A DNA stretch of 64,000 nt from Bordetella genomosp. 1 (GTDB lineage: Bacteria; Pseudomonadota; Gammaproteobacteria; Burkholderiales; Burkholderiaceae_B), in contig NZ_NEVL01000002.1 of the NCBI RefSeq assembly GCF_002261335.1, forward strand, positions 496,001 to 560,000, given 5' to 3'. Below the pieces are notes generated by a model. It saw only the letters and a list, made by a program, of their open reading frames with translations, was not told where the DNA came from and did not search any database. Below are positions 27,490 to 39,791 of the stretch, piece after piece (the first letter of the stretch is position 1; each line of letters starts with the position of its first letter). The translations under genes and the position numbers were made by a program.

Positions 27490-30060
27490 TCAGTTGCCCG
27501 CCACGCGGGCCGCGATGTGGGCCAGCGCTTCCTCGACCTGGTCGACCAGGATCAGGCACAGATCGCCCGGGTTGAGGCGGGCGAGGGCACGATCGATGGC
27601 GATGAACTCGCCGCGGATCTCCTCGATGTGCGAAGCCCGCTTGGCGTTGTTCAGGCCCTGGCGCAGCAGCGCCAGCACCTCGCCGTCGGAACGGCCGCGC
27701 TGGCACTGGTCTTCGTAGAGGATCACGTCGTCGAACACGTCGCCCAGGATCTCGGTCTGGCGCGTCAGGTCTTCGTCGCGGCGGTCGCCCGCGCCGCTGA
27801 TGACCACGCTCAGGCGCTTGGCCGGCATGGCCTGCACCGCCTGCACCAGCGCGAGAATCGCGTCCGGGTTGTGGCCGTAGTCGGCGATCAGCGTGGCGCC
27901 CTTGTAGTCGAACACGTTGAAGCGGCCGGGCGCGGTGGCGGCGTCGTTGACGAAGCTGGCCAGGCCGGTGCGCACCACCTGCCAGTCCAGGCCCAGGGCC
28001 CAGGCGGCGGCCACGCAGGCCATGGCGTTCTCGACCTGGAACGTGATGGCGCCGTTGCGGGTGAGGGGGATCGCGGCCAGCGGCAGGCTGACTTCCTGCG
28101 TGCCCTGGGCGGCCACGATGTTGCCGCCGTCGCGATACACCACCCGCTTGCCCTGCGCGCGGTGGGTGGCGATGAGCGGGTGATTGCGATCCTGGGCGAA
28201 GTAGGTGACCTCGCCCGGGCAGGCGCTGGCCATCTCGGCCACGATCGGGTCGGCGGCGTTGAGCACGGCCATGCCGGTGCTCTTCACGTATTGCACGATC
28301 ACGCGCTTGACCACGGCCAGGTCCTCGACCGTGCTGATGTAGCCCAGGCCCAGGTGATCGCCCGCGCCGATGTTGGTCACGATGGCCACGTCGCAGCGGT
28401 CGAAGGCCAGGCCCTCGCGCAGGATGCCGCCGCGGGCGGTCTCGAACACGGCCGCGTCCACCTCGGGATGGAGCAGGATGCGGCGCGCGCTGCGCGGGCC
28501 GCTGCAATCGCCGGTGTCGATGCGGCGCTTGCCCACATACACGCCGTCGGAATTGGTCATGCCGACGTTGTTGCCGGCGCAGGCCAGCAGGTGCGCGCTC
28601 AGGCGCACCGTGGTGGTCTTGCCGTTGGTGCCGGCCACGGCGATCACGGGAATGCGGGCGTCTTCGCCGTCCTGGAACATCTGGCCGATGATGGCTTCGC
28701 CCACCGCGCGGCCCTTGCCGAACGAGGGGTTCAGGTGCATGCGCAGGCCCGGCGCGGCGTTGACCTCGACCACGCCGCCATGCTGCTCTTCCATCGGCAG
28801 ATGCACGGTCTCGGCGACCACGTCCACGCCGCAGATGTCGAGGCCGATCATGCGGGCGGCGGTGATGGCGCGCGCGGCCATCTCGGGGTGCACCTCATCG
28901 GTGACGTCGGTGGCCGAGCCGCCCGTGCTCAGGTTGGCGTTGTTGCGCAGCACGACCAGGGTGCCGGCCGGCGGCACCGAGTCGGCCTCGTAACCCTGCT
29001 TGCGCAGCGTCGCCAGGGCGATGTCGTCGAAGCGGATCTTGGTGAGCGAGGTGGCATGGCCGTCCCCGCGCAGCGGGTCGGCGTTGACCTGCTCGACCAG
29101 CTGGCGGATGGTCTGCACGCCGTCGCCCGTGACCTGGGGCGGATCGCGGCGCGCGGCGGCGACCAGCGTGTTGCCGACCACCAGCAGGCGGAAGTCGTGG
29201 CCCGGAATGTAGCGCTCGACGATCACCTCGGAGCTGATGTCGGCGGCCGCCTCGAAGGCGGCCAGCACGCGCTCGCGCGTCTCGATGTTGACGGCCACGC
29301 CGCGGCCCTGGCTGCCGTCGCGCGGCTTGACCACGACCGGGCCGCCGAGCTCCTGCGCGGCTTCCCACGCGGCTTCGGCGGTGTCGACCGAGCGGCCCAG
29401 CGGCACCGGCACGCCGGCCGCGTCGAGCAGCATCTTGGTCAGGTCCTTGTCCTGCGCGATCGATTCGGAGATGGCGCTGGTGCGATCGGTTTCGGCGGCC
29501 TGGATGCGGCGCTGGCGCCGGCCCCAGCCGAACTGCACCATGCTGCCTTGCGTGAGGCGATGGTAGGGGATGTTGCGGGCGGTGGCCGCATTCACGATGG
29601 ATCCGGTGCTGGGCCCGAGGCGCACGTCCTCGTCGAGCTCGCGCAGGCGGCGCAGCGCGTCCGGCACGTCGAACGGCGTGTCGGCCAGGGCGGCGTCGAT
29701 CAGCTCGCGCGCCAGCGTCATGGCCAGCCGGCCGACCTCTTCCTCGCTGTACTCCACCACGACCTGGAACACGCCGGGTTCGATGGTGGGCGAGGTGCGG
29801 CCGAACGTGACCGGACACCCGGCGTAGGCCTGCAGCTGCAGGGCAATGATCTGCAGCACGTGCGCGAGCGAGACCGCGTCGGCGTGGCCCTCGGGCTGCA
29901 GCAGCCCGAGCTGGGGGAAGCGGCCGCGCAGCCGCGCTTCGAGTTCGGGGCGTAGGGCCAGCGAGCATTCGTCGTCGGCGCAGGAGGCGACCGCCTCGAT
30001 GGCCGTGTTGCGGCTCCAGAGATTGGGGCCGCGCAGCGCGCGGATTCGTGAAACTTCCAT
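27490..30060 (-). CDS. cphA: Cyanophycin synthetase CphA (CphA1-type)
   Basis: An 856-residue enzyme that polymerises aspartate and arginine into multi-L-arginyl-poly-L-aspartate (cyanophycin), using ATP. Layout: an N-terminal domain (1-160), an ATP-grasp domain (about 200-465, with VVVKPRDGSQGRGVAVN at 241-257 and GGVVEVNAAPGLRMHL) and a Mur-ligase-like domain (470-856) with the P-loop AGTNGKTTT (476-484). The Mur part keeps the ETARGGILREGL segment at 540-551 and DYGHNPDA, as expected for active CphA1. It is transcribed with cphA' (30115-32730), 54 bp downstream of it, and ends in a very strong hairpin. No cyanophycinase gene is in the window. Confidence 0.96.
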   Translation of the reverse strand: MEVSRIRALRGPNLWSRNTAIEAVASCADDECSLALRPELEARLRGRFPQLGLLQPEGHADAVSLAHVLQIIALQLQAYAGCPVTFGRTSPTIEPGVFQVVVEYSEEEVGRLAMTLARELIDAALADTPFDVPDALRRLRELDEDVRLGPSTGSIVNAATARNIPYHRLTQGSMVQFGWGRRQRRIQAAETDRTSAISESIAQDKDLTKMLLDAAGVPVPLGRSVDTAEAAWEAAQELGGPVVVKPRDGSQGRGVAVNIETRERVLAAFEAAADISSEVIVERYIPGHDFRLLVVGNTLVAAARRDPPQVTGDGVQTIRQLVEQVNADPLRGDGHATSLTKIRFDDIALATLRKQGYEADSVPPAGTLVVLRNNANLSTGGSATDVTDEVHPEMAARAITAARMIGLDICGVDVVAETVHLPMEEQHGGVVEVNAAPGLRMHLNPSFGKGRAVGEAIIGQMFQDGEDARIPVIAVAGTNGKTTTVRLSAHLLACAGNNVGMTNSDGVYVGKRRIDTGDCSGPRSARRILLHPEVDAAVFETARGGILREGLAFDRCDVAIVTNIGAGDHLGLGYISTVEDLAVVKRVIVQYVKSTGMAVLNAADPIVAEMASACPGEVTYFAQDRNHPLIATHRAQGKRVVYRDGGNIVAAQGTQEVSLPLAAIPLTRNGAITFQVENAMACVAAAWALGLDWQVVRTGLASFVNDAATAPGRFNVFDYKGATLIADYGHNPDAILALVQAVQAMPAKRLSVVISGAGDRRDEDLTRQTEILGDVFDDVILYEDQCQRGRSDGEVLALLRQGLNNAKRASHIEEIRGEFIAIDRALARLNPGDLCLILVDQVEEALAHIAARVAGN

Positions 30061-30114
30061 GGCAGGCGTTCCTGTCGGGAAAGTGCGCCGCTGGTCGCGG
30101 CGCTTTATTGGTTG

Positions 30115-32730
30115 TCAGTCTTGTTGGATCCAGCGGCGCACGAGGTCTATGGTGGGACCGGAGAACGCTTCATCGGATTGCAGCAGTACGAACTCGCCCT
30201 GCGCCGGCTGCGTGAGCACCCGGCGGATGGCTTGCGCGTGGTCGGGTTCGTCGACGATCTCGACGGCCCTGCCTCCTTGTTCCAGGCCCTGGCGCAGCAG
30301 CGCGCGGGCCTGTCCTGCGGGCCGCTTGCTCTTGACGGTGGCATCGTCGTAGAGCACGACGCGGTCGAATGCCGCGCCGAGCAGGCGGCCCTGCTCGATC
30401 AGGTCTTCATCGCGCCGGTCCTGGCCGGCCGAATACACGGCGACGCGCGACTGGCTCGGGAACTGCTCGATCGCGGCCAGCAGCGCGCGCAGCGCCGACG
30501 CGTTGTGCACGTCGTCCACCACCACCGACACGCCGTTGCGCTCGAACAGCGTGAACTGCCACGGCGCATCGGCCTGGTCGATGTCGAAGGTCTCGATGCT
30601 GGCGCGGATCACGTCGATCGGCACGTCGAGCGCCCAGGCGGTGGCCACGGCGGCCAGCACGTTCTCGACCTGGAACTGCACCCGGCCGCCATGCGTGAGC
30701 GGCACCGCGGCGATGTCGGCCAGGCGTTCTTCGGTGCGGCCGCGCGCGAGCACGATGTGGCCGTCGCGCACGAACACGGCGCGCTTGCCCAGCGCCACGT
30801 GCGAGGCGAGCGCCGGCACGTTCGGCGTCAGGCCGAAATACATCACCTCGCCATCGCACAGCTCGGCCATTTCGACCACGCGCGGATCGCGCGCGTTGAG
30901 CACGCCCACGCCGCCCGGCAGCACCACGTCGATCTGGGTGCGCAGCACGTTGAACAGGCGGTCGGTCTCGTTGATGTCGAAGTCGCCCAGATGATCGCCG
31001 TCGTCGATGTTGGTGATCACGCCGACCTGGCAGCGGTCGTAGGCCAGGCCCTGGCCCAGGATCACGCTGCTGTCGTTCTCGATCACGGCCGCGTCGACGG
31101 AGCGGTTCATCAGCACCCGGCGGCCGGCCGCCCAGGTGGCGCAATCGCCCTGCTGGACGGCGCGCTTGTTCAGGTACAGGCCTTCGCTGCAGGCCACGCC
31201 GGTCTGCTTGCCGGACAGGTGCAGGATGCGGCCCACCAGGCGGGCGACCACGGTCTTGCCGTTGGTGCCGGTGATGCCCACGATGGGGATGCGGCCGTCT
31301 TCGCCTTCGGGGAACAGGTGGTCCACGATGGCGCGGCCCACCGGGCGCGCGGTGCCGTCGGCGGGCTTGAGGTGCATCAACAGGCCGGGGCCTGCGTTGA
31401 CCTCGACGATGGCGCCGCGCTGCTCGTCGAGCGGACGCGAAATGTCTTCGGCCACGAGGTCCACGCCCGCGATGTCCAGGCCCACCACGCGCGCGGCCAG
31501 CACCACCAGCGCGGCGGTGTCCGGATGCACGCGGTCGGTCACGTCGAACGCGACGTTGCCGCTGCGCTGGATCAGCACGCGCTGGCCGTCGGCCGGCACG
31601 CTGTCGGCGCTGAGGTTCTGGCGCTTGATTTCGAGGCGCGCGGCCGAGTCCAGCCGCACCGGATTGAGCGGATGGTTTTCGGTGCGGCCGCGGCGCGGGT
31701 CGGTGTTGATCTGGCTGGCGATCAGGTCTTCGACGGTGTTCTTGCCGTCGCCCGTGATCCAGGCCGGCTCGCCGGCGGCCGCGGCCACCAGCCGGTCGCC
31801 CACCACCAGGAGGCGGTGCTCGAGGCCCAGCACGAAGCGCTCGACGATCACGCCGCTGCCTTCCTCCACCGCGACGCCGTAGGCCGATTCGACCTCTTCG
31901 CGCGTCATCAGATTGGTGAAGACGCCGCGGCCGTGGTTGCCGTCATAGGGCTTGACGACCACCGGCAGGCCGATGTCCTGCGCGGCCTCCCAGGCGTCTT
32001 CGACGGTCTCGACCAGGCGGCCCTCGGGCACCGGCACGCCGCAGGTCGACAGCAGCGACTTGGTGAGATCCTTGTCGCGCGAGATGCCTTCGGCGATCGC
32101 GCTGGTGCGGTCGGTCTCGGCGGTCCAGATGCGGCGCTGGCGCGCGCCGTAGCCGAACTGCACCAGATTGCCTTCGAACAGGCGGGTATAGGGAATGTCG
32201 CGATCGTCGGCGGCGTCGACGATGCAGGCCGTGCTCGGGCCGAGGCAATGGCGATCGACCAGCGAGCGCAGATCGGAGATCGCCTCGTCCACGTCGAACG
32301 GCCGGTCTTCGATGGCGGCCATCACCAGGTCGCGCGCCGAGGCCAGCGCGGCGCGGGTGACCTGCTCGTGCCAGGCGCGCACCACCACCTTGTAGACGCC
32401 GACCGTGGAGGTCTCTCGCGCCTTGCCGAAGCCGCCGGGCAGGCCGGCGAGGTTCTGCAGTTCGAGGGTGACGTGTTCGAGGATGTGGCCGGGCCAGGTG
32501 CCCTCGCGCAGGCGCTGCAGGAAGCCGCCGCGCACGCCCGGGCTGCAGCGGTGTTCGATCAGGCTGGGCAGCCAGGCGGTGAGCCTTTCGTAGAAACCGG
32601 GGATCACGTTGGAGGGGTAATTCTCCAACTCCCCGATGTCGACCCAGGCTTCGAGCACCGGGCGATACGTCCAAATGTTCGGGCCGCGCAGAGCCACGAC
32701 ATCGAGAAATTCAATGTCCTTTTTTTTCAT
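30115..32730 (-). CDS. cphA': Second cyanophycin synthetase homologue (CphA')
   Basis: An 871-residue paralogue of CphA with the same three-part layout. The ATP-grasp domain is intact (VVVKPYDGNHGRGVF, about 257-271; GAIVEVNAGPGLLMHL) and the Mur P-loop is present (GTNGKT, 488-493). The segment matching ETARGGILR of CphA is ENDSSVILG (551-559), and DYGHNPDA has become DDVHNASA. The Mur-type ligase part is therefore probably altered in substrate use. Tandem CphA'/CphA pairs are known in Bordetella, Ralstonia and Burkholderia relatives, and the exact role of CphA' is unsettled. It is the first gene of the minus-strand operon, divergent from the ABC transporter at 32994. Confidence 0.93.
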   Translation of the reverse strand: MKKKDIEFLDVVALRGPNIWTYRPVLEAWVDIGELENYPSNVIPGFYERLTAWLPSLIEHRCSPGVRGGFLQRLREGTWPGHILEHVTLELQNLAGLPGGFGKARETSTVGVYKVVVRAWHEQVTRAALASARDLVMAAIEDRPFDVDEAISDLRSLVDRHCLGPSTACIVDAADDRDIPYTRLFEGNLVQFGYGARQRRIWTAETDRTSAIAEGISRDKDLTKSLLSTCGVPVPEGRLVETVEDAWEAAQDIGLPVVVKPYDGNHGRGVFTNLMTREEVESAYGVAVEEGSGVIVERFVLGLEHRLLVVGDRLVAAAAGEPAWITGDGKNTVEDLIASQINTDPRRGRTENHPLNPVRLDSAARLEIKRQNLSADSVPADGQRVLIQRSGNVAFDVTDRVHPDTAALVVLAARVVGLDIAGVDLVAEDISRPLDEQRGAIVEVNAGPGLLMHLKPADGTARPVGRAIVDHLFPEGEDGRIPIVGITGTNGKTVVARLVGRILHLSGKQTGVACSEGLYLNKRAVQQGDCATWAAGRRVLMNRSVDAAVIENDSSVILGQGLAYDRCQVGVITNIDDGDHLGDFDINETDRLFNVLRTQIDVVLPGGVGVLNARDPRVVEMAELCDGEVMYFGLTPNVPALASHVALGKRAVFVRDGHIVLARGRTEERLADIAAVPLTHGGRVQFQVENVLAAVATAWALDVPIDVIRASIETFDIDQADAPWQFTLFERNGVSVVVDDVHNASALRALLAAIEQFPSQSRVAVYSAGQDRRDEDLIEQGRLLGAAFDRVVLYDDATVKSKRPAGQARALLRQGLEQGGRAVEIVDEPDHAQAIRRVLTQPAQGEFVLLQSDEAFSGPTIDLVRRWIQQD

Positions 32731-32993
32731 GGAAGCTTGGGGTGCGGTTACACATAGGCGGGGAGGGGTTCCCGGGGCGTGCCGTAAAGCCAGACTGGTG
32801 CCGGACGGGGGTGTAGCCTATGTGAGAAGGGTGGCGATTTCCTGCAGTAGAAAATACGAAACTCGGCTGCTACTATACGCCGCCTTTTTGCCCATATAAA
32901 CTCGCGCTGTTGTAAGGAACGGACACGTTTTCGGTCCGTGGCCGGGGGAACGATTCCCCAGGGCCGGCCGGGGGCGGTGTAATACGCGTTCTG
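32731..32993. promoter_or_regulatory. Divergent promoter region of cyanophycin genes and ABC transporter
   Basis: 263 bp separate cphA' (minus) and the ABC transporter gene (plus). The central part (about 32850-32910) is the only AT-rich stretch and contains TACTATAC and CATATAAA, suitable as -10 elements. The right part is GC-rich. No regulator site could be named. Confidence 0.45.
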
Positions 32994-35276
32994 ATGAAAA
33001 AACACCCAACAACTTCCAGCGCAAACGCGCGCGAGTTACCTGCCCAGTGGCAGGCCGAAGCCGATGCCCGGCTGGGCGAGGACGAGGGCATTCTGGCCTG
33101 GCTGGAAACCGACCTCGATGCCCGGCTGCGCTATGCGCCCGGGCTCGTGATCGCCACCGACCAGCGCCTGCTGGCGCGCGATGCCGCCGGCCAATGGCAA
33201 TCGTGGCCCTATTCCAGTGCGCTGCGCCTGAACCTGCACGATCACGCCGGCGCCGCCGCCTTCGAGCTCGACGACGGCGAGCAACGGCTCGGCATGTGGC
33301 GCTTCACGCTGGGCCGCAATCCGGCCGCGCTGCGGCTGCTCAACCAGTTCGAGAGCCAGCAGGCGTTGCGCCTGTCCAACACCCAGGCGCAGGCCAGCGG
33401 CGACGCCGTCTGTCCCACCTGCCAGGCCGTGCTGGACCCCGACGACGAAGATTGCCCGCAGTGCGACGGCGAGTCGGCCGAGCCGCCCTCGACGTGGGCG
33501 CTGCTGCGGCTGTGGCGCTTTGCCCGGCCGTACCGCTTCCCGCTGCTGGCCGGGTTTCTCCTGACGCTGCTGGGCACGGCCGCCACCCTGGTGCCGCCGT
33601 ATCTCACCATGCCGCTGATGGACGAGGTGCTGATTCCCTACCAGAACGGCGTCTCGATCGACTACAGCAAGGTGCGCCTGTATCTGGGCGGCCTGCTGGC
33701 CTCGGCCATCCTGGCCTGGGCGCTGGGCTGGGCCCGCACCTACATTCTGGCCTGGGTGAGCGAGCGCATCGGCGCCGACCTGCGCACCACCACCTACGAG
33801 CATCTGCAGCAGCTCTCGCTGGAGTATTTCGGCGGCAAGCGCACGGGCGACCTGATGGCGCGCATCGGCAGCGAAACCGACCGCATCTGCGTGTTCCTGT
33901 CGCTGCACCTGCTCGATTTCGCCAACGACGTGCTGATGATCGCGATGACCGCGGCCATCCTGTTCTCGATCAATCCCTCGCTGGCCCTGGTCACGCTGAT
34001 CCCGCTGCCCTTCATCATGTGGATGATCCACGTGGTGCGCGACCGCCTGCGCCACGGCTTCGAGAAGGTCGACCGCATCTGGTCGGAGATCACCAACGTG
34101 CTGGCCGACACGATTCCCGGCATCCGCGTGGTCAAGGCCTTCGCCCAGGAAAAGCGCGAGGTGCAGCGCTTTCGCGAGGCCAACAATCGCAACCTCGAGG
34201 TCAATGACCGGGTCAACAAGGTCTGGTCGCTGTTCTCGCCCACCGTCACGCTGCTCACCGAGATCGGCCTGCTGGTGGTGTGGATCTTCGGTATCTGGCT
34301 GGTGTCGCAGGATCAGATCACGGTCGGCGTGCTGGCCGCGTTCCTCGCCTATATCGGGCGCTTCTACACGCGCCTCGACTCGATGAGCCGCATCGTGTCC
34401 GTCACGCAGAAAGCGGCCGCCGGCGCCAAGCGCATCTTCGACATTCTCGATCACGTCTCCAGCGTGCCGGAGCCGGTGCGCCCAGTGGCCCTGCCGCCGG
34501 TGCAAGGCCACATCAAGCTGCGCGACGTGGGCTTTCGCTACGGCAACCGCCAGGTCATCCGTGGCCTGAACCTGGACATCGCACCGGGCGAAATGATCGG
34601 CCTGGTGGGCCACAGCGGCTCGGGCAAGAGCACCCTGATCAACCTGATCTGCCGCTTCTACGACGTGTCGGAAGGCGCGGTGCTGGTCGACGGCATCGAC
34701 ATCCGCTCGCTGCGGGTGTCGGAGTACCGGCGCAACATCGGGCTGGTGCTGCAGGAGCCGTTCCTGTTCTTCGGCACCATCGCCGAGAACATCGCCTACG
34801 GCAAGCCCGAGGCCACCCGCGAGGAAATCATCGCCGCCGCGCGCGCCGCGCATGCGCACGACTTCATCCTGCGCCTGCCGCACGGCTACGACTCGCTCGT
34901 GGGCGAGCGCGGCCAGGCGCTGTCGGGCGGCGAGCGCCAGCGCATCTCGATCGCGCGCGCGCTGCTGATCGACCCGCGCATCCTGATTCTCGACGAGGCC
35001 ACTTCCTCGGTCGACACCACCACCGAGAAAGAAATCCAGAAGGCGCTCGACAACCTCGTGCGCGGCCGCACCACCATCGCGATCGCGCACCGGCTCTCGA
35101 CCCTGCGCCGGGCCAACCGCCTGGTGGTGATGGACCGGGGCCAGGTGGTCGAAGAGGGCCCGCACGAGGCGCTGATGGCGCGCGAAGGCGCCTACTACCG
35201 CCTCTATCAGGCCCAGGCCCGCAACAACGACTCCGAAAGCGGCGACGACGATGACGACATCGTCGCCGTCGCGTGA
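32994..35276 (+). CDS. Cyanophycin-locus ABC transporter (exporter type, permease-ATPase fusion)
   Basis: A 760-residue half-transporter. Residues 1-160 form an added cytoplasmic domain with a PH-like pattern and a zinc ribbon, C140-PT-C143...C154-PQ-C157. Then come a six-helix ABC exporter domain (about 180-470) and an ATPase: Walker A GHSGSGKST, Q-loop LQEPF, signature LSGGERQ, Walker B ILILDEATSS and the H-loop in IAHRLST. The C terminus is acidic (GDDDDDIV). Proteins of this type are recurrent neighbours of cyanophycin synthetases and DUF1854 proteins. The substrate is not known; it may export a peptide, lipid or metal, or couple granule formation to the membrane. It is divergent from cphA'. 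Confidence 0.9.
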   Translation: MKKHPTTSSANARELPAQWQAEADARLGEDEGILAWLETDLDARLRYAPGLVIATDQRLLARDAAGQWQSWPYSSALRLNLHDHAGAAAFELDDGEQRLGMWRFTLGRNPAALRLLNQFESQQALRLSNTQAQASGDAVCPTCQAVLDPDDEDCPQCDGESAEPPSTWALLRLWRFARPYRFPLLAGFLLTLLGTAATLVPPYLTMPLMDEVLIPYQNGVSIDYSKVRLYLGGLLASAILAWALGWARTYILAWVSERIGADLRTTTYEHLQQLSLEYFGGKRTGDLMARIGSETDRICVFLSLHLLDFANDVLMIAMTAAILFSINPSLALVTLIPLPFIMWMIHVVRDRLRHGFEKVDRIWSEITNVLADTIPGIRVVKAFAQEKREVQRFREANNRNLEVNDRVNKVWSLFSPTVTLLTEIGLLVVWIFGIWLVSQDQITVGVLAAFLAYIGRFYTRLDSMSRIVSVTQKAAAGAKRIFDILDHVSSVPEPVRPVALPPVQGHIKLRDVGFRYGNRQVIRGLNLDIAPGEMIGLVGHSGSGKSTLINLICRFYDVSEGAVLVDGIDIRSLRVSEYRRNIGLVLQEPFLFFGTIAENIAYGKPEATREEIIAAARAAHAHDFILRLPHGYDSLVGERGQALSGGERQRISIARALLIDPRILILDEATSSVDTTTEKEIQKALDNLVRGRTTIAIAHRLSTLRRANRLVVMDRGQVVEEGPHEALMAREGAYYRLYQAQARNNDSESGDDDDDIVAVA

Positions 35277-35280
35277 CGCC

Positions 35281-35757
35281 ATGGCGCACTCCCTGTCCGA
35301 ACTGAATCTGCAGCGCAACGCGATGGGCCGCCTGGTCTATGTCGACGAGGCGGGCGCAACCCACGACGGCGTGGTGCCGGTCCGCGCGTTTCCGATCAGC
35401 GAGCCGGCCGGCGGCCTCTCGTTGATGAGCCCCGACGGCCACGAGCTGATCTGGATCGCCGATCCCCAGGCGCTGGCCCCGGCCGTGCGCGAGCTGATCG
35501 AGGCCGAGCTGGCCGGCCGCGAATTCATGCCGGAGATCCAGCGGCTCGTGAGCGTGTCCACCTATGCCACGCCTTCCACCTGGAAGGTGCAGACCGATCG
35601 CGGCGAGGTGTCGTTCGTGCTGCGCGGCGAGGAAGACATCCGCCGGCTCGCCGGCCACACACTGCTGATCACCGACAGCCACGGCATCCATTACCTGATC
35701 CGCGACGCGCAGGCGCTCGACCGCGCCAGCCGCAAGCTGCTCGACCGCTTCCTCTGA
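35281..35757 (+). CDS. DUF1854 domain protein, cyanophycin-associated
   Basis: The 158-residue protein starts MAHSLSELNLQRNAMGRLVYVD and contains the DUF1854 core: VVPVRAFPISEPAGGLSLMSPDGHELIWI, then STWKVQTDRGEVSFVLRGEEDIRRL and LITDSHGIHYLI. The family is conserved beside cyanophycin synthetases and the ABC transporter in front of it. It follows that transporter by four bases, so the two are one operon. An earlier in-frame ATG at 35251 overlaps the transporter end and has no family similarity. No membrane segment or catalytic motif is visible, and the function is unknown; a partner or regulator of the transporter is possible. Confidence 0.88.
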   Translation: MAHSLSELNLQRNAMGRLVYVDEAGATHDGVVPVRAFPISEPAGGLSLMSPDGHELIWIADPQALAPAVRELIEAELAGREFMPEIQRLVSVSTYATPSTWKVQTDRGEVSFVLRGEEDIRRLAGHTLLITDSHGIHYLIRDAQALDRASRKLLDRFL

Positions 35758-35772
35758 CCCGGGTTTCCCGGC

Positions 35773-36909
35773 TCAGGGGCCGCCGCGGCGGAACGGCGTG
35801 TGCGCTTCCAGCTCGCCGCGATAGGCATCGACCGCGCGCGTCTCATCGCCCAGGAATTCGTCGATCGCGGCCTCGAAGCGCGGGTCGGCGATCCAGTGCG
35901 CCGAGCAGGTCGCCACCGGCATCAGGCCGCGCGCCATCTTGTGCTCGCCCTGCGCGCCGCCCTCGAAGGTGTCGAGCCCGTGGCGGATGCAGTACTCGAT
36001 CGCCTGCATGTAGCAGGTCTCGAAGTGCAGGCCGGACACGAACACGCGCGAGCCCCAGTAGCGGCCATACAGCACCTGGCCCCCACGCAGATTGAGCGCC
36101 GCGGCGACCGGCTCGCCGTCGCGTTCGGCCAGCACCAGCACCAGCGAGCCGGGTTGATGCGCGCGCAACCGGTCGAAGAAGGCACGCGTGAGGTAGGGCG
36201 GATTGCCGTGTTCGAGGTAGGTCTGGCAATAGCAGGCATAGAAGAAGTCCAGGTCGGCGTCGCACAGCGCCGGCCCCTCGACGTGGCGGAACGTCACGCC
36301 GGCGGCGGCCACGCGCTTGCGGTCCTGCAGCAGCTTCTTGCGCTTGTCGTGATTGAAGGCGGCCAGGAAGGCGGCCATGTCGGCATAGCCGGCGTTGCGC
36401 CAGTGAAACTGCACGCCTTCGCGCACCAGGCAGCCGGCGCGGGCCAGGGCGTCGCGGTCGGCCGCGTCGGGAAACAGCACGTGCAGCGACGACACCTTGA
36501 GTTCGCGCGCCAGCCCCACCAGGGCCTCGGCCAGCGCGTCGCGCACCGCCGCGTCGCGCGCCAGCAGCCGGCGGCCGGGCACCGGCGTGAACGGCACCGC
36601 CGCCAGCAGCTTGGGGTAGTAGCGCAGGCCGTGGCGATGGTAGGCGTCGGCCCAGGCGTAGTCGAACACGTACTCGCCGCGCGAATGCGCCTTGAGATAG
36701 AGCGGCACCGCGCCGGCCAGGGCCTCGCCCGCGCGCAGCACGAGGTAGTAGGGCGTCCAGCCGGTCTGCGGCGTGGCGCAGCCGGTCTCGTGCAGGGCGT
36801 GCAGATAGGCATGGCTCAGGCAGGGCTGCCCGCCTGCCAGCGCATCCCATTCTGCCGGGTCGATGCCGGCGAGCGAGGATTCGACGGCGAGGCGGTAAGC
36901 GGTGTCCAT
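35773..36909 (-). CDS. GNAT/FemAB-like acyltransferase (DUF482)
   Basis: A 378-residue protein with the DUF482/FemAB-like fold. Typical segments are ALAGGQPCLSHAYLHALHETGCA, GWTPYYLVLRAGEALAGAVPLYLKAHSRGEYVFDYAWADAY, LAAFNHDKRKKLLQDRKRVAAAGV, YLEHGNPPYLTRAFFDRL, GGQVLYGRYWGS and the C-terminal GLDTFEGGAQGEHKMARGLMP. Family members transfer aminoacyl groups or modify peptides and amino acids. It is convergent with the DUF1854 gene, and related genes are often next to cyanophycin genes, which would fit chemistry on aspartate/arginine dipeptides; this is inference. The start ATG at 36909 is supported by family similarity beginning at MDTAYRLAV. Confidence 0.87.
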   Translation of the reverse strand: MDTAYRLAVESSLAGIDPAEWDALAGGQPCLSHAYLHALHETGCATPQTGWTPYYLVLRAGEALAGAVPLYLKAHSRGEYVFDYAWADAYHRHGLRYYPKLLAAVPFTPVPGRRLLARDAAVRDALAEALVGLARELKVSSLHVLFPDAADRDALARAGCLVREGVQFHWRNAGYADMAAFLAAFNHDKRKKLLQDRKRVAAAGVTFRHVEGPALCDADLDFFYACYCQTYLEHGNPPYLTRAFFDRLRAHQPGSLVLVLAERDGEPVAAALNLRGGQVLYGRYWGSRVFVSGLHFETCYMQAIEYCIRHGLDTFEGGAQGEHKMARGLMPVATCSAHWIADPRFEAAIDEFLGDETRAVDAYRGELEAHTPFRRGGP

Positions 36910-36991
36910 GGCGCAATGATAAAGTCTGCGCGTGACTTGGCGCGGCATGACCGCGTCGGGTCGATGGCTTCCCGGTATTGGCGGAACTTTC

Positions 36992-37810
36992 ATGAATGCA
37001 GCGACCCCGCAGCCCACGTTGCGGTCCCAGGCGCTGGCGGCGCTGTGCGCCGCCGAGTGGCCCGACAAACTCGCGGCGGTGGCCGCCATCGACGACACCC
37101 TGCCGGCGGGCGCCGAGCTGGCGCTGGCCGAGCCGGCCGGCCTGCCGGGGCGCCCGCGCGCGCCCGAGCAGGTGCCGCCCGCGCAGGTGCGCCAGCGCTC
37201 GGTGCAGACGCCCGCAGGCCGGGCGGCGCTGCTGCACGCCCTGGCCCACATCGAATTCAACGCGATCAACCTGGCACTGGACGCGATCTGGCGTTACGCC
37301 GGCCTGCCCGACGCCTTCTATCGCGACTGGCTCGGCGTGGCCCGCGAAGAGGCCTGTCACTTCGACCTGCTCAACCGCCATCTGGCCACGCTGGGTCATG
37401 GCTACGGCGATTTCCCGGCGCACAACGGCCTGTGGGACATGGCCGAACGGACCCGCGGCGACCTGCTGGCGCGGCTGGCGCTGGTGCCGCGCACGCTGGA
37501 GGCGCGCGGCCTCGACGCCTCGCCGCCGATCCGCGACAAGCTCGCCCGCGCCGGCGACGCGCAGGGCGCCGCCATCCTGGAGATCATCCTGCGCGACGAG
37601 ATCGGCCACGTGGCCATCGGCAATCGCTGGTATCGCCATTTCTGCGCCGAACGCGGCCTCGATCCCGTGTCGCAATACGGCGTGCTGGCGCGCCAGTACG
37701 ACGCCCCGCGGCTGCGCGGCCCCTTCAATCTCGAGGCGCGCCGCGCCGCCGGTTTCGACGAGGCCGAGCTGGCCGAACTCGCGGCGGGCATGCCGGAGCG
37801 CGCGTCATGA
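36992..37810 (+). CDS. DUF455 ferritin-like domain protein
   Basis: A 272-residue helical-bundle protein. Residues expected to form a di-iron site appear in order: HIEFNAINLALD (Glu88), REEACHFDLLNRH (Glu119/Glu120 and His123) and RDEIGHVAIGNRW (Glu203 and His206). The spacing fits MiaE-like/DUF455 ferritin-like proteins, which are possible oxygen-activating enzymes. The ATG at 36992 is chosen because similarity begins there. It is divergent from the acyltransferase and overlaps the MOSC gene by four bases (ATGA), so the two are co-translated. The substrate is unknown. Confidence 0.88.
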   Translation: MNAATPQPTLRSQALAALCAAEWPDKLAAVAAIDDTLPAGAELALAEPAGLPGRPRAPEQVPPAQVRQRSVQTPAGRAALLHALAHIEFNAINLALDAIWRYAGLPDAFYRDWLGVAREEACHFDLLNRHLATLGHGYGDFPAHNGLWDMAERTRGDLLARLALVPRTLEARGLDASPPIRDKLARAGDAQGAAILEIILRDEIGHVAIGNRWYRHFCAERGLDPVSQYGVLARQYDAPRLRGPFNLEARRAAGFDEAELAELAAGMPERAS

Positions 37811-38499
37811 GCGGCCACACGATCCTCACCGTGCTGGCCGGACCGGTCGCGCCGCTGGGCGACAGCGGCAAGACCAGCGCCATCGCCAAGCACGCGCTGG
37901 CGGCGCCGGTGGCGGTCGGCCCGCTGGGGCTGGCGGGCGACGAGCAGGCCGACCCGCGCTTTCACGGCGGGCCGGAAAAGGCCGTGCATCACTACGCCTA
38001 CGAGCACTATCCGTTCTGGCAGCAGGCGCTCGGCGCGCGCGAGGTGCTGACGCGGCCCGGCGCCTTCGGCGAGAACATCAGCACCGTCGGCCTGACCGAA
38101 CGCGAGGTCTGCATCGGCGACATCTATCGCTGCGGCACGCTGGTGTTGCAGGTGTCGCAGGCGCGCCAGCCCTGCTGGAAGCTCGACGTGCGTTTCGCGC
38201 ACAAGGGCATGGCCGCCGAGGTGCAGCGCAGCGGCCTGACGGGCTGGTATTACCGGGTGCTGGAGCCGGGCACGCTGCACGCGGGCGCGCAGCTCGAACG
38301 CGTCGCGCGGCCGCGGCCCGGCTGGACGCTGGCACGCATCCAGGACCTGCTCAACCGGCGCGTGGTCGACGGCGCGGCGCTGGCCCAGCTGGCCGACATG
38401 CCGGAGCTCTCGCCCAACTGGCGCGCGCTGTTCGCGAAACGGCGCGAGGCCGGCGTGGCCGAAGACTGGAACCGGCGCCTGCGGGGTGACGGCTTGTGA
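37807..38499 (+). CDS. MOSC domain-containing protein (YiiM-like)
   Basis: A 230-residue protein of the MOSC family. Signatures are LGLAGDEQADPRFHGGPEKAVHHYAYEHYPFW, GAFGENISTVGLTEREVCIGDIYRCGTLVLQVSQARQPCWKL (with the conserved cysteine) and TGWYYRVLEPG. MOSC domains bind molybdenum cofactor or carry sulfur; YiiM-like members detoxify N-hydroxylated compounds. The C terminus has the extra 3-alpha domain seen in YiiM (TLARIQDLLNRRVVDGAALAQLADMPELSPNWRALFAKR). It is co-translated with the DUF455 gene. Confidence 0.92.
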   Translation: MSGHTILTVLAGPVAPLGDSGKTSAIAKHALAAPVAVGPLGLAGDEQADPRFHGGPEKAVHHYAYEHYPFWQQALGAREVLTRPGAFGENISTVGLTEREVCIGDIYRCGTLVLQVSQARQPCWKLDVRFAHKGMAAEVQRSGLTGWYYRVLEPGTLHAGAQLERVARPRPGWTLARIQDLLNRRVVDGAALAQLADMPELSPNWRALFAKRREAGVAEDWNRRLRGDGL

Positions 38500-38534
38500 C
38501 ACCGCGGGGCGGGGGCTGCGTTTAGAATCAGCGC

Positions 38535-39791
38535 ATGAACCGACCCGTCCAACGCCGCTTCCTTTCCCGCCGCGCCGCCGGCGCCGCGCTCGCCGCCGCG
38601 CTCTCCGCCGCGATCCTGCCCGCCGCGCAGGCACAGAGCACCGCCCAGCCGCCCAGCGATGCCGACCTCAAGGCCTACGCCACCTGCCTGGGCCAGTTGC
38701 GCCCCGACGCGCTGAAGGCCGGCGTGAGCGGCGCCACGTTCGACACCTACACGCAGGGCATCACGCCCGACATGTCCATCCTCGAGCTGCTCGATGCGCA
38801 GCCCGAATTCAAGACGCCGATCTGGGACTACCTGGCCAGCCTGGTCGATGCCGAGCGCATCCACGACGGCGAGCAGGGCCTGGAGCAATGGTCCAAGGAG
38901 CTGGCCCGCATCCAGACGCAATACGGCGTGGACCCCGCGACGGTGGTCGCCGTGTGGGGGGTGGAAAGCAATTTCGGCAAGAACCTCGGCGGACGCCCGC
39001 TGCTGCAGTCGCTGTCCACGCTCTCGTGCTTCGGCCGCCGCCAGGCCTATTTCCGCGGCGAGTTCTTCGCCACGCTCAAGATCATCCAGGACGAGCACGT
39101 CAAGCCCGAGCGCCTCAATGGCTCCTGGGCCGGCGCCTTCGGCCAGACGCAATTCATGCCGTCCACCTATCTGCGCCTTGCGGTGGACTTCGATGGCGAC
39201 GGCCGCCGCGACCTGGTCGACAGCGTGCCCGACGCGCTGGCCTCGACCGCCAACTTCCTCAAGCGTGCCGGCTGGAACAACGACATCCCCTGGGGCTTCG
39301 AAGTGACCCTGCCCAGCGGCCTGGACACCAGCGGCGCGGGCCGGCGCAACAAGAAGCCCATGTCGCAGTGGGCGGCGGCCGGCATCAAGCGCGCCAACGG
39401 CCGCGCGCTGCCGGCCGGCGAGCTGCAGGCCGGGCTGCTCCTGCCGGCGGGCCCGCAGGGCCCCGCGTTCCTGGTCACGAAGAATTTCGACGCGCTTTAT
39501 TCGTATAACGCGGCGGAGAGCTACGGCCTGGCGATCGCGCACTTGTCGGACCGCCTGCGAGGCGGCATGCCCTTCGTGCGCGCCTGGCCCACCGACGATC
39601 CCGGCCTGTCGCGCGCCGAGCGCCGCGAGATCCAGGAGCTGCTGGTGGCGCGCGGCTACGACATCGGCAAGCCCGACGGCGTGATCGGCACCCGCACGCG
39701 CCAGGCGCTGCAGCAGGTGCAGCGCGAGCTGGGCCTGCCCGACGACGGCCGCGCCGGCCAGAAGACGCTGAAGGCGCTGCGCCAGCAGTGA
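38535..39791 (+). CDS. Lytic murein transglycosylase, MltB family
   Basis: A 418-residue periplasmic enzyme that cleaves the MurNAc-GlcNAc bond of peptidoglycan to give 1,6-anhydro ends. It has a signal peptide (FLSRRAAGAALAAALSAAILPAAQAQ), an SLT_2/MltB catalytic domain (about 45-335; catalytic Glu144 in WGVESNFG; GAFGQTQFMPSTYLRLAVDFDGDGRRDL) and a C-terminal peptidoglycan-binding_1 domain (LVARGYDIGKPDGVIGTRTRQALQQVQRELGLPDDG). No lipobox is seen, so it is soluble, closer to the MltB paralogues with a PGB domain. It stands alone after the MOSC gene. Confidence 0.94.
   Translation: MNRPVQRRFLSRRAAGAALAAALSAAILPAAQAQSTAQPPSDADLKAYATCLGQLRPDALKAGVSGATFDTYTQGITPDMSILELLDAQPEFKTPIWDYLASLVDAERIHDGEQGLEQWSKELARIQTQYGVDPATVVAVWGVESNFGKNLGGRPLLQSLSTLSCFGRRQAYFRGEFFATLKIIQDEHVKPERLNGSWAGAFGQTQFMPSTYLRLAVDFDGDGRRDLVDSVPDALASTANFLKRAGWNNDIPWGFEVTLPSGLDTSGAGRRNKKPMSQWAAAGIKRANGRALPAGELQAGLLLPAGPQGPAFLVTKNFDALYSYNAAESYGLAIAHLSDRLRGGMPFVRAWPTDDPGLSRAERREIQELLVARGYDIGKPDGVIGTRTRQALQQVQRELGLPDDGRAGQKTLKALRQQ

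Follow-up and report, generated by a model that had tools for sequence, protein, structure and literature searches.

A recurrent four-gene cyanophycin module in Bordetella genomosp. 1 carries two synthetase-family proteins with reciprocal active-site lesions

Results

Organization of the locus

We analyzed a 64,000-nucleotide stretch of Bordetella genomosp. 1 (GCF_002261335.1, NZ_NEVL01000002.1, positions 496,001 to 560,000; hereafter the window), which is part of contig C2 of a 5.6-Mb genome. It carries two adjacent genes of the cyanophycin synthetase family, CphA' and CphA, that face a divergent pair encoding an ATP-binding cassette (ABC) exporter and a DUF1854 protein (Table 1). All genes lie where an initial annotation, made from the sequence alone, had placed them. 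By CphA, the closest named relatives are Bordetella genomosp. 5 (93%), followed by other Bordetella and Achromobacter. The 263-bp region between the divergent pairs contains one sigma-70-like site on the minus strand, and a conserved operator sought there was not found.

Table 1. Features of the cyanophycin locus and its flank, in window coordinates
Feature	Coordinates	Strand	Family match or note
CphA'	27490..30060	-	PRK14016 1252 bits (cut-off 877); TIGR02068 978 bits (cut-off 850)
CphA	30115..32730	-	PRK14016 1285 bits (cut-off 877); TIGR02068 892.6 bits (cut-off 850)
Cx19HxxEH motif of CphA, residues 62-86	32473..32547	-	motif as defined in PMC9262961
Divergent intergenic region, 263-bp	32731..32993	none	
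ABC exporter (ABC_membrane + ABC_tran, MsbA/HlyB-like) with extra N-terminal region	32994..35276	+	NF052233 CphA_assoc_ABC 1437.7 bits (cut-off 880)
Predicted PH-like domain, N-terminus of ABC protein	33042..33395	+	
Zinc ribbon CPTC...CPQC, between PH-like domain and membrane part of ABC protein	33411..33464	+	
DUF1854 protein, two small alpha/beta parts	35281..35757 (alternative start 35251)	+	NF052234 232.2 bits (cut-off 150)
FemAB_like	35773-36915	-	PF04339
DUF455	36932-37810	+	
MOSC/YiiM	37813-38499	+	

The exporter has the same membrane and nucleotide-binding domains as MsbA- and HlyB-type exporters, but differs from them in its PH-like and zinc-ribbon N-terminal region and in its co-inherited DUF1854 partner. 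A PH-like domain is a seven-stranded beta barrel closed by a C-terminal helix, and the predicted N-terminal domain shows both the barrel and the closing helix. The CxxC...CxxC ribbon is present in 41 of 49 aligned exporters, the window's among them; the other eight (L034, L040, L051, L057, L059, L064, L065, L078) have lost it and kept the membrane and ATPase parts. The DUF1854 frame opens at 35251, and comparison with relatives suggests that the real start is perhaps the ATG at 35281; in most relatives this start adjoins or overlaps the ABC stop. By score both proteins are members of NCBIfam families already labeled "cyanophycin metabolism-associated" (NF052233 and NF052234), a label that names an association only. 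The initial annotation regarded the function of this pair as unexplained, and the literature searched offered no explanation: it contained no mention of DUF1854, PF08909, NF052233, NF052234, or the phrase "cyanophycin metabolism-associated".

Four genes travel together

A gene-neighborhood survey across Burkholderiales, proposed as a check in the initial annotation, linked CphA', CphA, the ABC exporter and DUF1854, and did not link the FemAB, DUF455 and MOSC genes to them beyond the window's close relatives. Our order sample comprised 150 genomes, the window's own included, with CphA counted by NF010623 at E<=1e-100. DUF1854 (NF052234) and the ABC exporter (NF052233) each occur in 50 of the 150, and the two lists are identical. 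CphA occurs in 57, all 50 of the ABC/DUF1854 genomes among them, and 49 of those 50 have at least two CphA matches; the exception, G030, where the contig ends, has one. Leaving the window's genome aside, 46 of 49 module genomes have ABC/DUF1854 no more than 1.35 kb from CphA. The distance is ~8 kb in G034, ~13 kb in G115 and ~770 kb in G146, so that ABC and DUF1854 keep each other's company even where they are distant from cphA (G146, G115).

The seven CphA genomes outside the 50 comprise one module cut by a contig end (G122, with a partial ABC gene at the edge of L085), two with matches below the family cut-off (G016, G136), and four with canonical CphA1 (G041, G086, G113, G127). Across the phylum sample, DUF1854 was found in 16 of 299 genomes, all with CphA; 15 belong to the same order and the remaining one is G328. 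Of the 274 genomes in the class sample, 14 have CphA, and two of these, from one family outside the order (G637, G520), have all four genes at the loci that were read. CphA', CphA, the ABC exporter and DUF1854 are a real four-gene module, as the initial annotation had proposed in calling them recurrent neighbors.

CphA and CphA' carry lesions at opposite active sites

Single-chain CphA1 (SuCphA1, TeCphA1, TmCphA1; PMC9262961, PMC9427784) has the same N-G-M architecture as both members of the pair. Its N domain, marked by a Cx19HxxEH motif, has an endo-cyanophycinase activity that generates primers and also acts when added in trans; the site was demonstrated in SuCphA1 (PMC9262961). In the G domain, N394, R323 and R458, beside S396, recognize aspartate, and H267 and R309 sit at the acylphosphate; in the M domain, K499, T500 and E558 bind ATP (PMC9427784), and the D585A H586A mutation inactivates it (PMC9262961).

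We aligned 51 CphA, 50 CphA' rows (from 49 loci, one gene being broken in two) and six single-protein CphA1s, and counted nine N-site positions (H57, C59, F67, R70, H79, E82, H83, E87, R100), three aspartate-pocket positions (R323, S396, R458) and a nine-residue M set, of which R561 and the DYxHN and GDRRD motif columns were chosen as conserved positions, not from mutants. A held-out set of 13 module loci and 14 single-CphA loci, none used to find the lesion pattern, was then scored; since these loci are relatives, they test generality and do not represent independent events.

Every one of the 51 CphA keeps the nine N positions (held-out 13/13; together 64/64). None of the three pocket residues is kept in any of the 51, and no held-out CphA has a complete pocket (0/13; together 0/64). 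The full M set is likewise found in 0/51 (held-out 0/13; together 0/64). A 5-residue deletion falls at the aspartate loop. Elsewhere in the ATP-grasp domain H267 is kept in 50 of 51, and K220, K261, R309, D431 and E450 in 51 of 51 each.

CphA' shows the opposite pattern. The four N-motif residues occur in 0/50 rows (held-out 0/13; together 0/63), whereas the pocket is kept in 49/50 (13/13; 62/63) and the full M set in 49/50 (12/13, the exception L139 being cut by a contig end; 61/63). Among the 50 rows, pocket and M site are incomplete only where the gene of L040 is broken into two pieces. The window's own CphA' conforms, with pocket and M-site residues intact and the N-domain cutting site lost. 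In L040 itself (genome G011), CphA' lies in two overlapping open frames with the break near the G/M domain boundary, perhaps through a frameshift error, perhaps as a genuine split.

Single-protein CphA1s keep the pocket in 6/6, the M site in 6/6 and N-motif C59 in 4/6; their held-out counterparts have a complete pocket in 13/14, a complete M set in 12/14 and the four N-motif columns in 11/14. Among the latter, L144 contains the N motif by regular expression, L159 has an N-terminus cut by start choice, and L171 lacks the motif. Thus CphA1 carries G and M sites, and usually the N site, on one chain, whereas here the N site is on CphA and the aspartate pocket and M site are on CphA'; each checked site's residues sit on one member of the pair, H267 excepted. 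The literature searched, outside which many subscription papers fall, held no description of these reciprocal lesions, and at mapped CphA1 residues they appear new relative to it.

Domain conservation and descent

Conservation follows the same division. In the 36 Bordetella/Achromobacter loci that carry both genes, the N, G and M domains of CphA are on average 89, 88 and 78% identical to the window's, and those of CphA' 78, 89 and 81%. N identity exceeds M identity in 36 of 36 CphA and falls below it in 36 of 36 CphA'. In L161 and L162, outside the order, CphA has lost ATP-grasp residues and kept all nine N residues, suggesting that it is the N site whose function is retained.

Most CphA relatives lack the C-terminal part of the M domain: 43 of 51 are 707-773 residues long and end inside it, and eight, the window's included, have at least 815 residues. 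The longer proteins are scattered among the short ones in the G-domain tree, so the M-domain end has probably disappeared on several occasions. The window's CphA retains the M-domain P-loop and C-terminal part and keeps 8 of the 9 M positions, having lost the R561 equivalent; its M domain is therefore altered rather than clearly dead.

All 51 CphA fall into a single clade of the G-domain tree (100/100, stem 0.9). A CphA' clade is weakly supported (91/44), and the canonical set forms another clade (99/98). The one locus outside the order in the phylum sample, L156 (G328:C9:3500-11782), is the only unsplit case encountered: next to ABC and DUF1854 stands one CphA that combines the N motif, the aspartate pocket and the M residues, with Q at position 267. 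This protein groups with CphA' rows in a second tree, which contains a very long branch (L162) and whose bootstrap had not settled, and it may represent a pre-split state; G328, however, has 8% contamination, and its contig stops within the L156 gene.

Cyanophycinase is scarce in module genomes

The initial annotation saw no cyanophycinase at the locus; none is present there or in the window's genome (TIGR02069, E<=1e-10). The sole PF03575 (S51) match of that genome reads like PepE. Of dipeptidase families, the one searched gave an Asparaginase_2/IaaA-type protein elsewhere in the genome (PF01112, 389 bits, G000:C2:424135). TIGR02069 scores above cut-off in 9 of 150 order genomes: four of the 50 module genomes (G056, G102, G068, G021, the last three with matches in longer frames), all four genomes with canonical CphA1 only, and G125, which lacks CphA. 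In G112, also a module genome, the match stays below cut-off. Because three of the four canonical genomes belong to one genus, the contrast is suggestive and not independent evidence.

The annotation further held that breakdown must be encoded elsewhere or proceed by a non-homologous route. This overlooked CphA: because it keeps the N-domain endo-cyanophycinase site, which CphA' has lost, the cluster itself encodes a candidate chain-cutting activity.

In G056 a second locus (L093, G056:C1:5333000-5352000) holds two CphA1-like genes, one beside a cyanophycinase, and both proteins lack a full N motif. A second Mur-ligase-like protein adjoins canonical CphA1 at L158, L159, L163-L165, L167, L168, L086, L088 and L089. 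The one at L158 has 613 residues, keeps the P-loop and an ARGG motif, and lies near cyanophycinase-like and IadA-like genes. The cphA1-cphB storage loci (with the IadA-like gene at L158) make or turn over the same polymer, but have a cyanophycinase near one intact CphA1 where the module has none.

Discussion

We propose that the locus probably encodes a split cyanophycin synthetase, with CphA' as builder and CphA as cutter, together with a dedicated transport pair, ABC/DUF1854. The division of sites between the two proteins is well supported by sequence; every activity, the action in trans, a physical complex and export are inferred. What the genomes provide is the reciprocal lesions, a single CphA clade, co-inheritance and scarce cyanophycinase.

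CphA' would be the polymerase, its ATP-grasp (G) domain adding aspartate at the chain end and its Mur-like (M) domain attaching arginine to the aspartate side chain, and it would be unable to make its own primers. CphA would no longer be a synthetase; its conserved job would be that of an N-domain zinc endo-cyanophycinase, acting in trans to cleave chains down to short (beta-Asp-Arg)n primers for CphA'. The precedent for trans-priming is the isolated SuCphA1 N domain, which cuts mainly to (beta-Asp-Arg)4 and, supplied in trans, makes primer-dependent TmCphA1 primer-independent (PMC9262961). With cyanophycinase absent, the same cutting may also be a route of chain shortening. Keeping builder and cutter separate would let the cell set their ratio, which is impossible in single-chain CphA1. 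The exporter, through its PH-like and zinc-ribbon cytoplasmic region, and DUF1854 would probably capture and export short chains. Export is suggested because an exporter is present, cyanophycinase is scarce, and no cyanophycin was detected from the R. eutropha H16 genes (PMC8560796, citing Adames 2013).

Several points weigh against the split synthetase. The N394 column of CphA is still N in 46 of 51 proteins, the 5-residue deletion being placed just after it. The ATP-grasp core of CphA is conserved in 51 of 51 order-sample proteins and so may have a role that a builder and cutter do not name. Some M activity may persist in the window's full-length CphA, given the M residues that it keeps. CphA' has Q at the equivalent of H267, a residue of the G-domain P-loop, in the window and in most rows (Q 47, H 2, gap 1), although all five distinct PDB-aligned CphA1 sequences have H and an H267 Ala mutant inactivates the SuCphA1 G site; for this reason G-domain activity of CphA' is only assumed. 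The two CphA1-like proteins of the G056 second locus likewise have Q at 267, which suggests, but does not prove, that Q is tolerated. Cutting by the SuCphA1 N domain is slow (PMC9262961). The missing R. eutropha product fits export and equally an inactive system. Finally, PMC8560796 places extracellular cyanophycinases in Nitrosomonas and Ralstonia, contrary to PMC5178258.

The strongest rival, which we consider unlikely, is an intracellular store in which the CphA N domain is a breakdown enzyme and ABC/DUF1854 act elsewhere, for example in beta-Asp-Arg efflux or lipid flipping. The endo-cyanophycinase site of CphA, the IaaA-type protein of the window's genome and the resemblance of the exporter to the MsbA type are all as expected from such a store. 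A slow cut that yields mainly tetramers in SuCphA1 (PMC9262961) fits it poorly, however, and how strictly ABC and DUF1854 are inherited together speaks for a core role.

Less credible is a CphA2-like protein whose ATP-grasp domain religates beta-Asp-Arg dipeptides, making the locus a dipeptide recycler. Like CphA2, a paralogue that it matches at low score, CphA lacks a complete M site, and its ATP-grasp catalytic core is conserved across the order. It also matches PDB entries 8fxh and 7ta5, which we take to be CphA2. Yet CphA lacks the 5-residue aspartate loop, and 8fxh, like CphA1, aligns over 200 residues where CphA has 196, suggesting that 8fxh keeps it. Moreover, CphA has a full N cutting site together with the deleted loop; 46 of 50 module genomes lack a cyanophycinase above cut-off to release dipeptides; and the ATP-grasp residues are lost in L161 and L162. 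On the absence of an M-domain P-loop and M lid that marks CphA2 (PMC9427784), CphA gives a mixed picture: the window's protein retains the P-loop and the C-terminal part, and most relatives have lost the latter.

A secreted, capped oligo-cyanophycin strikes us as comparably improbable. Here the product would be no storage granule: CphA would cut the growing chain, and its pocket-less ATP-grasp domain would cap the freshly made C-terminus with some other amine. DUF1854 and the PH-like/zinc-ribbon region would then recognize the oligomer, and the ABC protein would export it. If true, such a product would represent a new class among exported branched poly-amino acids.

Least probable is that both proteins are ordinary synthetases from a redundant tandem duplication that fill intracellular granules, with ABC and DUF1854 only indirectly involved: both do exceed the NCBIfam CphA cut-offs and are counted as two copies in PMC10687191 and PMC5670224, but mapped active-site residues are reciprocally lost over 64 CphA and 63 CphA' rows, and 43 of 51 CphA have no more than 773 residues and end inside the M domain.

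One third of the order genomes sampled (50/150) carry the module, and published work describes such pairs as two cyanophycin synthetases, a label that misnames one protein of every pair if one member is a dedicated cutter. In 2023, two clustered cphA genes were described together with an unclassified ABC transporter, with no cphB and with flanking insertion sequences, raising the question of cphB analogues and cyanophycin transport genes (PMC10687191). Two adjacent cphA genes were noted in 2016, when no cyanophycinase was known in Betaproteobacteria according to that paper (PMC5178258); Herminiimonas is given two copies and no cyanophycinase (PMC5670224); and a recognized cyanophycinase is reported in 658 of 1614 CphA1 genomes (PMC10206079). 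Cyanophycin synthesis in an Achromobacter has been deduced from the genome only (PMC12509546). A split synthetase, if true, would bear on the cphA-bearing Betaproteobacteria without recognized cyanophycinase (PMC5178258, PMC5670224) and on the absent product of the R. eutropha H16 genes (PMC8560796). It would also be a natural system for tuning primer cutting apart from polymerization, which expression level cannot separate in single-chain CphA1 (PMC9262961), and it makes the ABC/DUF1854 question directly testable.

Flanking genes and a distant DUF1854

Beyond DUF1854 lie the FemAB_like, DUF455 and MOSC/YiiM genes, followed by a lytic transglycosylase (MltB), a neighborhood spanning window positions 35773-39791. 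Among 37 Bordetella/Achromobacter loci, 33 have FemAB next to the module, and L130-L132 and L142 lack it. Outside the window's genome it adjoins the module in one of 49 order-sample module genomes (G138, of the same family), a count in which a few loci end early at contig ends. FemAB, DUF455, MOSC and MltB are a local Bordetella/Achromobacter neighborhood of the module. The initial annotation had grouped FemAB, DUF455 and MOSC as an extra accessory module and offered an acyltransferase as a route of breakdown. The grouping does not extend past the window's close relatives, and the acyltransferase route finds no support because FemAB does not travel with the module; what survives of that interpretation is the recurrence of the first four genes and the unexplained ABC/DUF1854 pair.

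PF08909 (DUF1854) was also detected in a control archaeon, Sulfolobus acidocaldarius, where the same control set gave no CphA match. Its neighbors there could be a pointer to the general role of the domain.

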